Source of the DNA: Sulfurimonas sp.
GTDB taxonomy: Bacteria; Campylobacterota; Campylobacteria; Campylobacterales; Sulfurimonadaceae
NCBI GenBank assembly: GCA_027063645.1
Contig: JAMORK010000018.1
Coordinates: 1-34,106 of the forward strand
Direction: 5' to 3'
DNA: 34,106 nucleotides
Shown piece after piece: positions 16,375 to 21,250 of this stretch. Position numbers and translations under genes: made by a program. How positions within the stretch are numbered: position 1 is the stretch's first letter; each line of letters starts with the position of its first letter. The notes below the pieces were generated by a model. The model did no database searches. It saw only the letters and a program-made list of their open reading frames with translations, and was not told the DNA's origin.

Positions 16375-17853
16375 ATGGAGAATCGTCCATTAGAGTACGA
16401 CTATACGGTTGCAAAGATGTTTATGGTTACAACAATTGTTTTAGGAATTGTTGGAATGAGCATCGGAGTATTTATTGCATTTGAACTAGCGTTTCCATGG
16501 TTAAACACAATCCTTGGTCCTGATCTTGCAGAATACACTAACTTTAGTCGTCTTCGTCCATTGCACACTGATGCAGTTGCATTTGGTTTTACAGTAAGTG
16601 GTATTTTTGCTACTTGGTTTTATGTTGGTCAAAGGGTACTAAAAGTATCTATGGCTGAATCTAAATTTTTAATGTTTATCGGTAAATTACAGTTTTGGTT
16701 GTATGTAATCGGTGTAACAGCTGTTGTTATTTCACTTTTTATGGGTTATACAACATCAAAAGAGTATGCTGAATTTGAATGGCCTATTGATATCGCTATC
16801 GTTGTGGTATGGGTATTATGGGGTGTGAGTATTTTCGGTCTTATCGGTATTCGTCGTGAGAAGAGTTTATATATCTCTGTATGGTACTATATTGCTACTT
16901 TCTTAGGTGTGGCTATGCTTTACCTATTTAACAATATGGAAGTTCCAACTTACTTTGCTTCTGGTGGTATTGGTGATGTTATGCACTCAGTATCTATGTA
17001 TGCTGGTACAAATGATGCACTAGTACAATGGTGGTATGGACACAATGCAGTTGCATTTGTATTTACTGTGCCTATTATTGCTATGATTTACTACTTTTTA
17101 CCAAAAGAATCAGGTCAAGCTATTTATTCATATAAATTGTCTTTACTTTCATTCTGGGGTTTAATGTTTGTTTATCTTTGGGCTGGTGGTCACCACCTTC
17201 TTTTCTCAACTGTTCCAGATTGGATGCAAACTATGGGGTCAATTTTCTCAGTAGTTTTAATTCTTCCATCTTGGGGTTCAGCGATCAATATGCTTCTTAC
17301 AATGAAGGGTGAGTGGCAACAAGTTGCAGCTTCTCCATTAATTAAGTTTATGGTACTTGCTTCTACTTTCTATATGTTCTCAACACTAGAAGGTCCAATT
17401 CAAGCTATCAAATCTGTTAATGCTATTGCTCACTTTACTGACTGGATTGTTGGTCATGTTCATGATGGTACTCTTGGTTGGGTTGGATTCATGATTATTG
17501 CTGCACTTTATCATATGGCTCCACGTGTATTTAAACGTGAACTATATTCTAAAAGTTTAATGGCATCTCAATTCTGGATTCAAACATTAGGTATCGTTTT
17601 ATACTTTACTTCTATGTGGATCGCAGGTATTACTCAAGGTATGATGTGGCGTGCTCACGATGAATTTGGTAACCTTGCTTACTCATTCATTGATACTGTT
17701 GATGTTTTACATCCATACTATGCTCTTCGTGGTACAGGTGGTTTATTATACTTAGTTGGTTTCTTTATGTTTGCTTATAACATTTATAAAACTATGTCTG
17801 CTCGTCCTGTTGAAGAGTCAGAGCTACAAAATGCTTCGCCTATGGGCGCTTAA
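16375..17853 (+). CDS. ccoN: Cytochrome c oxidase cbb3-type subunit I
   Basis: CcoN is the catalytic subunit of the high-affinity cbb3 oxidase in the inner membrane; it reduces O2 to water at a heme b3-CuB centre and pumps protons. The 492 residues span about 12 helices. Ligands can be placed: H64 and H363 for low-spin heme b, H223, H273 and H274 for CuB, H361 for heme b3, and Y267, six residues before the HH pair, as the cross-linked tyrosine. A strong AAGGAGG lies just upstream of ATG 16375. It is the first gene of the cco operon, and ccoO follows after 18 bases. Confidence 0.97.
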   Translation: MENRPLEYDYTVAKMFMVTTIVLGIVGMSIGVFIAFELAFPWLNTILGPDLAEYTNFSRLRPLHTDAVAFGFTVSGIFATWFYVGQRVLKVSMAESKFLMFIGKLQFWLYVIGVTAVVISLFMGYTTSKEYAEFEWPIDIAIVVVWVLWGVSIFGLIGIRREKSLYISVWYYIATFLGVAMLYLFNNMEVPTYFASGGIGDVMHSVSMYAGTNDALVQWWYGHNAVAFVFTVPIIAMIYYFLPKESGQAIYSYKLSLLSFWGLMFVYLWAGGHHLLFSTVPDWMQTMGSIFSVVLILPSWGSAINMLLTMKGEWQQVAASPLIKFMVLASTFYMFSTLEGPIQAIKSVNAIAHFTDWIVGHVHDGTLGWVGFMIIAALYHMAPRVFKRELYSKSLMASQFWIQTLGIVLYFTSMWIAGITQGMMWRAHDEFGNLAYSFIDTVDVLHPYYALRGTGGLLYLVGFFMFAYNIYKTMSARPVEESELQNASPMGA

Positions 17854-17871: not shown

Positions 17872-18564
17872 ATGTTTCATTGGTTAGAAAAAAACCCGTT
17901 CTTTTTCGCGGTAGGTGTATTCGTAACAATTGCATTTGCTGGTTTGATTGAGATCGTTCCAAACTTTGCACAAGCATCACGTCCTGTAATTGGGACAACA
18001 CCATACTCAACTTTAGAGTTGGCTGGTCGTCATGTATATATTAAGAATAGTTGTAATGCTTGTCATTCACAACTTATTCGTCCATTTAAATCAGAAACTG
18101 ACCGTTATGGTCACTACTCTTTAAGTGGTGAGTATGCTTATGATCGTCCATTTCTTTGGGGATCAAAAAGAACTGGTCCAGATTTAATGCGTGTAGGAAA
18201 CTATAGAACAACTGAGTGGCATGAGAATCACATGAAAGATCCTCAGTCAATCGTTCCTACTACTATTATGCCAGGGTATCCGTGGATGTTTACAAACAAA
18301 GCTGATATTGACACTGCTTATGCAGAACAGTTAACTATTGCTAATGTGTTTGGTGTACCTTATAACAAAGCAGTTCCTATGAAAGATGGATCAACTAAAA
18401 TTGTTAAAATGGGTAAAGATCTTAAAGATGCTCAAGCTCTAGCATTAGCTGAAGCTCAAGAAGTAGTAAAAAATATGAAAGATCAAGATGTTAAAGATGC
18501 AGTAGCAAATGGTGAGATTCCTGAAATTGTTGCACTTATAGCATACTTAAACAGTCTTAAATAG
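17872..18564 (+). CDS. ccoO: Cytochrome c oxidase cbb3-type subunit II
   Basis: CcoO is the membrane-anchored monoheme cytochrome c of the cbb3 oxidase that passes electrons to CcoN. The 230-residue protein has one N-terminal membrane helix (about 8-30) and a periplasmic domain with the heme motif CNACH (C61, C64, H65) and a likely axial methionine M133 in TTIMPGYPWM. The motif sits inside NSCNACHSQLIRPF, as usual for CcoO. GGGAGGA precedes ATG 17872, and ccoQ follows after 12 bases. Confidence 0.97.
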   Translation: MFHWLEKNPFFFAVGVFVTIAFAGLIEIVPNFAQASRPVIGTTPYSTLELAGRHVYIKNSCNACHSQLIRPFKSETDRYGHYSLSGEYAYDRPFLWGSKRTGPDLMRVGNYRTTEWHENHMKDPQSIVPTTIMPGYPWMFTNKADIDTAYAEQLTIANVFGVPYNKAVPMKDGSTKIVKMGKDLKDAQALALAEAQEVVKNMKDQDVKDAVANGEIPEIVALIAYLNSLK

Positions 18565-18576
18565 TAAGGAATTGTA

Positions 18577-18780
18577 GTGGATATTAATGAATTAGCAGCA
18601 TATGGTTATTTCTTTTTAATCGTGTTCTTGGTTGTAGGGTCTTACTCGTATATATACCATCTGTACACAAAAAAGAAGGATTCTTCTGGAGTTGATTATG
18701 AACACTACAGTAACATGGCATTAGATGACGATATAGATTCTACTCCGGTAAAACCTATATCTGATGAAAAAGAAAAATAG
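18577..18780 (+). CDS. ccoQ: cbb3 oxidase small subunit CcoQ
   Basis: A 67-residue protein with a single N-terminal membrane helix (about 9-29) followed by a charged cytoplasmic tail. CcoQ-type subunits stabilise the cbb3 complex. It starts at GTG 18577, seven bases after AAGGA; no ATG is available in the right place. Its position between ccoO and ccoP supports the call more than its sequence does, since the family is poorly conserved. Confidence 0.85.
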   Translation: MDINELAAYGYFFLIVFLVVGSYSYIYHLYTKKKDSSGVDYEHYSNMALDDDIDSTPVKPISDEKEK

Positions 18781-18789
18781 GAGAGATAT

Positions 18790-19731
18790 ATGAATAAGCT
18801 TTATCTTTGGGGAATCATCATTACTGCTGCAATGCTTGGTGCAACTTATGTAACGGTTGGCTATCAAAAAGGTGGTCTAAATGGTGACATTGTTAACATG
18901 CTTGCAATTGCAGGGGCGGTAGCACTTGTAATTATTACAGTATTTGTTGTAATCAAGTATGTGCGTCAAATGCAAGTTGACCAGGCAACTGGTGAATTAG
19001 CAGATGAGTCGTGGGATAATATAGGTGAATATAAGAACCCTGTGCCAATGGGCTGGGCAATTATGTTTATTGGAACAATGATTTGGGGTATGTGGTATTT
19101 CCTTGTAGGATACCCTGTAAATGCATACTCTCAAATTGGAGAGTATAATGAAGATGTTGCTGCTCATGATGCTAAGTTTGAAAAAGAATATGCAAATATT
19201 AAGGGTGAAAACTTAGTAAATATGGGTGAATCTGTTTATCTAGTTGAGTGTGTTGCTTGTCACGGTTTAAATGCTGATGGTAACAACGAAATTGATGCTG
19301 CAGATATTAACAAAAGAATTTCAGAAAAAAGTGTTAAGTATGTTGTGAACCATGGTTCAAACAACAAACTTTTAGGTATGGAAATGCCTATGCCAGATCG
19401 TAATGGTCTTTTCAATGCTAACACTGGTGCACTTATCACTGATGCTGAGATAGATACTGTTGCTAAATATGTAGCAAACGGTTTCCCAGCAGCTGATCAA
19501 GCTGGTGCTGATGTATTTGCTGGCGTTTGTTCTGCTTGTCATGGTGCTGACGGAAAAGGTATGGAGTATGTTGCTCCAGATATCCGTGAGTGGTCACAAG
19601 CATTAGTTGTTAATGTTCTTGATTATGGTAAAATTGGTGCTATTGGTACTATGCCATCTATGGACAGACTTAATGCAAAACAAAAAGAAGCTATCGCAGC
19701 ATATGTGATGAGTTTAAAAGAAGGAGAGTAA
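18790..19731 (+). CDS. ccoP: Cytochrome c oxidase cbb3-type subunit III
   Basis: CcoP is the diheme cytochrome c that receives electrons from soluble or bc1-linked cytochromes. The 313-residue protein has two N-terminal membrane segments (about 5-24 and 36-56) and a third at about 86-108, then two heme-binding motifs, CVACH (C154, C157, H158) and CSACH (C247, C250, H251), each with a downstream methionine (EMPMPD; TMPSMD). The N-terminal extra helix pair matches the longer CcoP form. AGGAGA precedes ATG 18790. The DUF4006 gene starts one base after its stop. Confidence 0.97.
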   Translation: MNKLYLWGIIITAAMLGATYVTVGYQKGGLNGDIVNMLAIAGAVALVIITVFVVIKYVRQMQVDQATGELADESWDNIGEYKNPVPMGWAIMFIGTMIWGMWYFLVGYPVNAYSQIGEYNEDVAAHDAKFEKEYANIKGENLVNMGESVYLVECVACHGLNADGNNEIDAADINKRISEKSVKYVVNHGSNNKLLGMEMPMPDRNGLFNANTGALITDAEIDTVAKYVANGFPAADQAGADVFAGVCSACHGADGKGMEYVAPDIREWSQALVVNVLDYGKIGAIGTMPSMDRLNAKQKEAIAAYVMSLKEGE

Positions 19732-19732
19732 C

Positions 19733-19942
19733 ATGAATGAAAACAGAAGTGTTTGGGCTCTTAATGGTTTAACTGGTGGACTTATTGCTACAGCTTTATT
19801 GTTAAGTATTTTAGCAGTATTGACTTTCTATGCAATCGGTGTACAATCAGCAAACTCAGAAAACTATTATAAAATAGTTGATGAAAAATCTATCAAGATG
19901 TTTAGTACTGAAAATGCTAAACATCTAGTAGATGCAAAATAA
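19733..19942 (+). CDS. DUF4006 family membrane protein
   Basis: A 69-residue protein with one membrane helix (about 14-37) and a C-terminal tail on one side. The family, to my knowledge, is found mostly in Campylobacterota next to ccoNOQP. A structural or assembly role in the cbb3 oxidase is inferred from position only. AAGGAGAG lies before ATG 19733, and the gene is packed one base after ccoP. Confidence 0.75.
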   Translation: MNENRSVWALNGLTGGLIATALLLSILAVLTFYAIGVQSANSENYYKIVDEKSIKMFSTENAKHLVDAK

Positions 19943-19953
19943 GGAGTGTCAAA

Positions 19954-20043
19954 ATGGAAAAAATTATTTCATGGGGTCTAGTTATAATGGCTGCATATAC
20001 TCTTTTTGCAGTTGTAACTCCTAACCATCTTTACATAGGTTAG
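19954..20043 (+). CDS. 29-residue single-pass membrane peptide in the cco operon
   Basis: An ORF of 29 codons with a strong ribosome-binding site AAGGAG eight bases before ATG 19954, located 11 bases after the DUF4006 stop. The peptide starts MEKIISWGLVIMAAY, continues as one hydrophobic helix, and ends in TPNHLYIG. Size and topology resemble accessory oxidase subunits such as CcoM of Pseudomonas cbb3, though no sequence relationship is claimed. The next gene starts 6 bases after its stop. It may be an unannotated cbb3 subunit; a leader peptide for the next gene is the alternative. Confidence 0.65.
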   Translation: MEKIISWGLVIMAAYTLFAVVTPNHLYIG

Positions 20044-20049
20044 ATTACA

Positions 20050-20751
20050 TTGAAAATCTTACTTAGAGGGCTTTATGCCCTCGCATTCCTCATCGTCTAT
20101 CAAACACAATTATCCGCAGAGTATTTATATAAAGATGAAATTATCTTTAACCCTAAATTTACTGAAGAAGTAGAATTGTTGGGAAAAGAGTTACATGATA
20201 AAACAGGTATAGCTTTACGTTTACTGATGTTAAAAGAGTTGCCAAATGGTGAAAATATTGTTGAATACGAAAAAAGTGTTTTAGCAAAATTTACAGAGCC
20301 AACAATCATCATGACATTTTCAGAATTAAATGGACAGGTTGATATACTAGCTAATGATAAGTCTTTATATAAATATTTTGACAAAAAAGATGTTCTAAGC
20401 CCAGTTGCATCAAAAGTACAAGCTTTTTTAATGGCTGTTATGTATGCAAAAAGTTGGGATGATTTTAAAGAGATCATGACACATAGCAATGGAACTATCT
20501 TACCTCTACTAGGAAGTAAAACAAAAAAATATGAAATTTTAGGTAAATACTCAGCATCTATGTTCAATGGATACTTGGATGTTGCACAACAAATTGCAAA
20601 ACATAAAGGTGTAACACTTGAACATGGTTTTAATGAAACAAATCAAGATACACTCTTTATAGTAAAGCTAGTGTTCTACGGTTTCATAATTTACGCTACT
20701 ATTATGTATATAAGAAGAAGAATATATAAAATGAGGCATAAAAATGAGTAA
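20050..20751 (+). CDS. Exported, C-terminally anchored protein with TPM-like domain
   Basis: A 233-residue protein of uncertain function. It has a cleavable-looking signal peptide (LLRGLYALAFLIVYQTQLSA), a periplasmic domain of about 180 residues and a C-terminal membrane helix (about 203-222) followed by basic RRRIYKMRHK. The pattern of ELLGKELHDKTGIALRLLML and a following IIMTFSELNGQVDI strand resembles the TPM domain seen in YgcG-like proteins, but I cannot confirm this. It starts at TTG 20050; AGGTTAG upstream is a weak ribosome-binding site. It overlaps fixH by 8 bases, so it is part of the cco operon and may help assemble the oxidase. Confidence 0.6.
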   Translation: MKILLRGLYALAFLIVYQTQLSAEYLYKDEIIFNPKFTEEVELLGKELHDKTGIALRLLMLKELPNGENIVEYEKSVLAKFTEPTIIMTFSELNGQVDILANDKSLYKYFDKKDVLSPVASKVQAFLMAVMYAKSWDDFKEIMTHSNGTILPLLGSKTKKYEILGKYSASMFNGYLDVAQQIAKHKGVTLEHGFNETNQDTLFIVKLVFYGFIIYATIMYIRRRIYKMRHKNE

Positions 20752-21250
20752 AAGTACAGGTAAAGCTTGGCCATATGCAATTGCTGGAGCAATTACAATG
20801 GTGTTTGGTTTTTGTGTAGCAACTGTTGTTGTTACAAGTAAGGCTGATATACAAGAGAGTAATGATTATATGACACATTATCAAGATGCTGATGCTAATG
20901 CAAATAAGCTCATTAAAGAGCGTATTGCATTTGATAAAAACTGCAAGATAGAGTATATTAAAAAGCAACTATCTGCTGATGGGACTACTATAGAGTATAA
21001 GATTACAGATATCAATGGTAATCCAATCAATAATGCAAAATTAAAAGTTTTAGTGTCGCGTCCTGAGACACATACACTTGATAAAGATTTAGAAAACCCA
21101 GTAGTAGAAAATGGTATTTACAAATTTGTAGATGTTTCATTTCCAAAGCCTGGTGTTTATAATCTTATAGCTAAAGTTGAAGTTGGTAATCTTTGTAGAT
21201 TTTATAATATAAAGGCTGATACTAGATATAGTAATGCATTTGAATTTTAA
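20744..21250 (+). CDS. FixH family protein
   Basis: A 168-residue protein with an N-terminal membrane helix (about 9-31) and a periplasmic immunoglobulin-like domain (KYKITDINGNPINNAKLKV-type strands). FixH/CcoH proteins are needed for cbb3 oxidase maturation or stability. Two cysteines (KNCKIEY, GNLCRFY) are visible in the exported part. The ATG overlaps the previous gene by 8 bases. The other usual assembly genes (ccoG, ccoI, ccoS) are not nearby. Confidence 0.75.
   Translation: MSKSTGKAWPYAIAGAITMVFGFCVATVVVTSKADIQESNDYMTHYQDADANANKLIKERIAFDKNCKIEYIKKQLSADGTTIEYKITDINGNPINNAKLKVLVSRPETHTLDKDLENPVVENGIYKFVDVSFPKPGVYNLIAKVEVGNLCRFYNIKADTRYSNAFEF

Follow-up and report, generated by a model that had tools for sequence, protein, structure and literature searches.

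The short open reading frame at positions 19954-20043 of the window, as we call the whole 34,106-nt stretch of Sulfurimonas sp. DNA analysed here, is a real protein-coding gene under strong purifying selection. It is very probably ccoY, the orthologue of Campylobacter jejuni cj1485c, with a role in the activity of the cbb3-type oxidase. ccoY is the second gene of a ccoX-ccoY-ccoZ-ccoH cassette that lies behind ccoNOQP in Campylobacterota, and the likeliest role of its product is that of a supernumerary subunit with one helix, or of an assembly and stability factor, in the oxidase or in the supercomplex of the oxidase with Qcr and CcoZ. Respiratory oxidases often have very small subunits that are missed by gene finders. 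In this regard, an earlier note on this DNA had proposed that the frame encoded an unannotated cbb3 subunit. The functional link with cbb3 stands, carried by synteny, selection and the deletion phenotype of C. jejuni, whereas the novelty does not, CcoY having been described in 2021. The CcoY family itself is known; what is new here is its distribution across the order, the test of selection and the form found in Helicobacter.

The window derives from an assembly of 1.14 Mb that is 54% complete, and most of the named proteins related to its DUF4006 product come from Sulfurimonas. Its cco genes, all on the forward strand and closely packed, follow each other as ccoN, ccoO, ccoQ (for an accepted subunit of cbb3 oxidases), ccoP, ccoX (DUF4006), ccoY, ccoZ and fixH/ccoH, with the following features:

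16375-17853, forward strand: ccoN, catalytic subunit of the cbb3 oxidase (PF00115, 4.2e-107; TIGR00780 above cut-off)
17872-18564, forward strand: ccoO, mono-haem cytochrome c subunit (PF02433, 1.4e-84; TIGR00781)
18577-18780, forward strand: ccoQ (PF05545, 3.8e-15; TIGR02736 at 56.4 bits, under its 61.55 cut-off)
18790-19731, forward strand: ccoP, di-haem cytochrome c subunit (PF14715 and PF13442 above cut-offs)
19733-19942, forward strand: ccoX (DUF4006), single transmembrane helix (PF13179, 1.2e-28)
19941-19946, forward strand: ccoY Shine-Dalgarno site (AAGGAG), which overlaps the stop codon of ccoX (sequence)
19954-20043, forward strand: ccoY, 29-aa single-helix membrane peptide (sequence, homology, selection, synteny)
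19963-20019, forward strand: predicted transmembrane helix of CcoY, residues 4-22 (Kyte-Doolittle maximum 2.05)
20017-20040, forward strand: conserved C-terminal TPNHLYIG of CcoY, predicted periplasmic (159 of 164 distinct peptides have a C-terminal Gly)
20050-20751, forward strand: ccoZ, with TTG start, N-terminal hydrophobic segment, TPM-fold domain and C-terminal helix (AlphaFold2, Foldseek)
20744-21250, forward strand: ccoH/fixH, 8-nt overlap with ccoZ (PF05751, 5.9e-07)

The ccoY frame opens with the ATG at 19954, closes with the TAG at 20043 and translates as MEKIISWGLVIMAAYTLFAVVTPNHLYIG (29 aa). Three features on which the earlier note had relied are borne out. The good ribosome-binding site is an AAGGAG placed 7 nt before the ATG, within the end of the ccoX gene, whose TAA stop occupies 19940-19942. 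The tight packing between DUF4006 and the next gene is seen in the overlap of that site with the ccoX stop and in the TTG start of ccoZ (20050), 6 nt past the ccoY stop. The single hydrophobic helix corresponds to residues 4-22, the most hydrophobic 19-residue window of the peptide, with a Kyte-Doolittle mean of 2.05. A motif of the Shine-Dalgarno kind was found by script in 156 of 190 ccoY loci. The window peptide falls in no Pfam or NCBIfam family, the sole NCBIfam row being of EmrA type at E 0.2, far under the cut-off.

With the window peptide alone as query, 141 of the 151 family genomes gave a match (best E-values between 1.5e-15 and 5.2e-4), and the ten genomes without ccoY also miss DUF4006/ccoX (0/10) and have no match to the CcoY profile. 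Over the order, the same search reached 201 of 298 genomes at E <= 1, the weakest of these matches being noise. For the analysis of selection, loci L001-L057 supplied 51 distinct sequences of 29 codons free of gaps. Their pooled pN/pS is 0.197 in frame, whereas the other two frames give 1.50 and 2.35, and the median dN/dS over 645 pairs with 0.1<pS<0.6 is 0.14. Because of these family-wide matches and of the in-frame dN/dS and pN/pS values, ccoY qualifies as a selected protein-coding gene.

At the level of the order, ccoX (DUF4006) was detected in 255 and FixO in 251 of 298 genomes, both of them in 249, ccoX only in six (three of them weak) and FixO only in two. A 'phylum' sample of 121 genomes consists entirely of members of the same order, and the distribution given here is therefore order-wide. 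Of 230 loci, 222 contain ccoX, 218 ccoZ and 197 a ccoY that the iterated profile recognises. Recurrence of the ORF at the same place in relatives, which had been suggested as a check, is what we find: once identical ccoX DNA is collapsed, 204 of 205 distinct ccoX loci contain either CcoY recognised by profile (174) or a CcoY-like ORF in the slot (30). The one locus with neither, L203, lies where its contig breaks off, 216 nt past the ccoX match; the same genome has CcoY (E 1.9e-14) on another contig. The ccoNOQP-X-Y-Z-H order is kept, with ccoX-Y-Z in this order in nearly all loci. Four loci of families f4 and f18 (L200, L202, L223 and L224) show between ccoX and ccoY a ccoG-like gene of about 480 aa, recognised from its ferredoxin-type cysteine motifs, and there ccoY still directly precedes ccoZ. 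Some f4 genomes (e.g., G213, G237 and G259) have CcoY with no match to ccoX or FixO, which we take to be due to contig breaks. In G203 and G356, FixO is present, ccoX is absent and the CcoY matches are weak; the FixO gene of G203 is at a contig end, and G356 stands as an exception. Apart from this, G216 and G309 have two FixO (ccoO) copies each, and both G216 matches run over a TAA. Natural fusions of CcoY were also considered and rejected, since the long open frames correspond to an unrelated efflux-adaptor-like protein in G377 and, in G319 and G338, to a normal ORF whose frame stays open further upstream.

The identity of the gene comes from C. jejuni. According to passages of PMC8267372, the genes from ccoP to ccoH are named there as ccoX (cj1486c), ccoY (cj1485c), ccoZ (cj1484c) and ccoH (cj1483c). 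In the same passages, ccoX (Cj1486, DUF4006) is essential for Cco oxidase activity, Cj1485/CcoY has 33 residues with one central helix, deletion of ccoY significantly decreases, without abolishing, the cbb3 (ascorbate/TMPD) oxidase activity, and CcoZ (cj1484c) has a TPM domain like that of Msmeg_4692 (PMC8267372). As that part of the source describes the deletion, polar effects on ccoZ and ccoH may contribute to its phenotype. A published primer for strain NCTC 11168 that reaches from the end of ccoY into ccoZ has an exact match in our C. jejuni-like locus L085, and six other primers tried from the same paper match it with 0-2 mismatches. The slot ORF of L085 encodes 33 aa, MNKALEYLIVIGLVVAAAITAWSVLTVNHLHIG, the size given for Cj1485; it was reached by a profile seeded with the window peptide (E 1.5e-14) and is 52% identical to it. 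The shared X-Y-Z-H order, the homology to this 33-aa peptide and the TPM fold of ccoZ are thus the grounds for naming the window ORF ccoY.

A more puzzling panorama was offered by family f14, taken to be Helicobacteraceae. The first search gave no CcoY in f14 or in the single genomes of f2, f8 and f21, save for the f14 locus L136, found by the iterated profile, and even a profile that included one f14 peptide missed most f14 genomes, or barely found them, when run genome-wide. The absence of ccoY from Helicobacter that single-peptide and profile searches had suggested was rejected after reading the ccoX-ccoZ slot itself: an ORF of 29-41 aa with a single helix occupies it in 31 of 31 divergent loci (f14 plus the single genomes of f2, f8 and f21). 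Scored with a CcoY profile built without any divergent peptide, the slot ORF ranks first of the 83-189 six-frame ORFs in 23 of these 31 loci, and takes ranks 2, 3, 3, 3, 3, 3, 7 and 12 in the other eight. In the reverse test, an f14-only profile placed CcoY first in 157 of 187 other loci, in ranks 2-3 in 16, in ranks 4-10 in 11 and lower in three. Moreover, direct comparison of the CcoY and f14 profiles with hhalign gave a probability of 92.9% (E 3.7e-7), in register over 29 columns, against at most 20.8% when both profiles were compared with six control segments of CcoX, Q, H, P, O and Z. Since this profile-profile match is far above the controls, we read the slot peptides of the Helicobacteraceae-like genomes, of 33-41 aa, as divergent forms of CcoY, in which the TPNHL(Y/F)(I/V)G end has been lost. 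One of the divergent genomes, G359, encodes a UreB that shows full identity, along 569 residues, to PDB chain 8hc1_B, which we take to be the urease of H. pylori; its CcoY, MKFTTLEKILALMVVATILMTIVISFVPNLFLFST, starts at an ATGA overlap with ccoX, behind AAGGGAG. In the literature searched, which holds few subscription journals and no preprints, we found no paper describing a Helicobacter CcoY-like peptide. As a side observation, the f14 locus L131 (genome G390) shows a second ccoX-like profile match downstream of ccoH, in the order NOQPXZHX.

A close-up view of the peptides shows a conserved C-terminal end and a marked asymmetry of charge. Among 164 distinct CcoY peptides outside f14, 159 end in Gly and 154 in [YFH][IVL]G, which is preceded by T-x-N-H-L in 99. 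Lys or Arg occurs within the first nine residues in 142 of 165 distinct peptides and within the last nine in 24, and the 20 f14 peptides follow the same trend (20/20 in the first twelve residues, 2/20 in the last nine). By the positive-inside rule, this distribution of charges, the only basis for the topology, places the N-terminus in the cytoplasm and the conserved end in the periplasm as the predicted arrangement.

The neighbouring 233-aa gene offers a clue about partners. Neither Pfam nor NCBIfam gives it a match at E <= 1, and sequence searches gave no solved PDB relative for CcoZ and a single chance match (E 0.27) for CcoX. The AlphaFold2 model of window CcoZ (pLDDT 92.3) adopts a TPM fold that, with Foldseek/VIA, matches AtTLP18.3 and Psb32 with Z 14-15, TPM proteins other than the mycobacterial ones with Z 14-16, and the TPM subunit of the mycobacterial III2-IV2 supercomplex (6adq_J, 6hwh_O, 8hcr_J and 8ovc_V) with Z 11.7-12.2. 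Because the modelled fold matches both TPM proteins and the mycobacterial supercomplex subunit, the gene is, as modelled, ccoZ, with a TPM fold as in MSMEG_4692. The preserved pairing of ccoY with ccoZ, together with this supercomplex-like fold, suggests that CcoY may help to keep CcoZ attached to the oxidase, or may link Cco with Qcr. In the arrangement that we propose, CcoY would cross the inner membrane as one helix, with a cytoplasmic N-terminus and the TPNHL(Y/F)(I/V)G end facing the periplasm, and would pack against subunits of the oxidase. It would serve there as a small accessory subunit or as an assembly and stability factor, probably in concert with CcoX and with CcoZ, the periplasmic TPM protein, at the Cco-Qcr contact.

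Whether CcoY remains in the mature enzyme is a separate question, and here we lean towards a peptide that stays in the finished complex as a subunit. It is also possible, if rather unlikely, that CcoY acts in biogenesis only, in folding, haem or copper insertion or the joining of CcoNO with CcoQP, and then leaves the finished oxidase. The partial loss of activity upon deletion would agree with such a role, as would the insertion of ccoG, a biogenesis gene, beside ccoY in some families; conservation of ccoY with the structural genes throughout the order, however, fits a subunit equally well. Biogenesis would also explain why CcoY is missing from the nine proteins listed after mass spectrometry of the high-mass/supercomplex band of C. 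jejuni in the accessible part of PMC8267372. This is weak evidence against a subunit, since CcoQ is unlisted as well, and peptides of small size and high hydrophobicity readily escape mass spectrometry. A bolder version of the subunit reading, which we regard as doubtful, would make CcoY an obligatory single-helix subunit in all cbb3-bearing Campylobacterales, including a strongly diverged and undescribed Helicobacter/H. pylori form, and CcoX, CcoY and CcoZ a module particular to this lineage by which the oxidase docks to Qcr, the Gram-negative equivalent of the linker subunits in the mycobacterial supercomplex.

The remaining alternatives fare much worse. A frame that merely coupled the translation of ccoX to that of ccoZ, with a peptide of little effect in itself, would account for the ribosome-binding site inside the ccoX end, the short or negative distances between ccoY and ccoZ, and the 4-nt ATGA overlap that the frame has with ccoX in H. 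pylori-like genomes, to which the sequence near its stop would add another with ccoZ. Selection on the amino acids, the conserved C-terminal motif and the persistence of ccoY beside ccoZ where ccoG parts it from ccoX make it very improbable. A common origin with the CydX/CioY helper peptides of bd oxidases has in its favour the size range, the location in an oxidase operon and the W, P and Y residues. We find that CioY-like ORFs of 31-51 aa (with W, YK and a positive C-terminus) follow cydB in 12 of the 14 loci with this gene (e.g., L241, L245 and L246), in families f9, f11, f18 and f20; hhalign gives only 1.0-3.0% between them and CcoY (0.1% for the f14 profile), and their positive C-termini have a polarity opposite to that of CcoY, so that this kinship was rejected as exceedingly improbable. 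In locus L249 (C. jejuni-like genome G399), the CydB/CioB match covers positions 1-156 of 302 and contains a TGA, and the gene looks broken or misassembled. Finally, a chance ORF in an intergenic gap, for which its very short length and the lack of a Pfam or NCBIfam family would speak, is virtually negligible in view of its presence in 141 of 151 family genomes and 204 of 205 loci with a dN/dS of 0.14.

Altogether, ccoY is a part of the core cbb3 operon of the order, more than a curiosity of Campylobacter, and the CcoY profile obtained here can be used to annotate it across Campylobacterales. The gene is also predicted in Helicobacter, and to our knowledge the cbb3 oxidase is the sole terminal oxidase of H. 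pylori. The tie between ccoY and ccoZ makes the Qcr-Cco supercomplex proposed for these bacteria easier to test.

Small partners of this kind occur in other oxidases. Within the same operon, CcoH (FixH) and CcoQ are also small membrane partners of cbb3, although they are encoded by separate genes in the window and their N-terminal segments have no profile match to CcoY. CioY/CydX of the CioAB/cytochrome bd oxidases is, like CcoY, a helix of some 30-40 aa encoded behind the oxidase genes, and CioY binds CioA according to passages of PMC11955535; the comparison is one of how the peptides would work. A search of the PDB with CcoY, by sequence and by profile, gave no convincing chain, the profile returning only MacA at E 2.9. 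The CcoM peptide of the Pseudomonas stutzeri cbb3 oxidase, of 36 aa according to the abstract of PMC10433244, is a small single-helix cbb3 subunit and would be an analogue in role; it comes from different bacteria, and the likeness is one of size and proposed role. The closest system is CcoY (Cj1485) of C. jejuni, the only one of the two whose function has been tested: with 33 instead of 29 aa and TVNHLHIG in place of TPNHLYIG, it shares with the window peptide the slot between ccoX and ccoZ, a length of about 30 aa, a single central hydrophobic helix and a homologous sequence.
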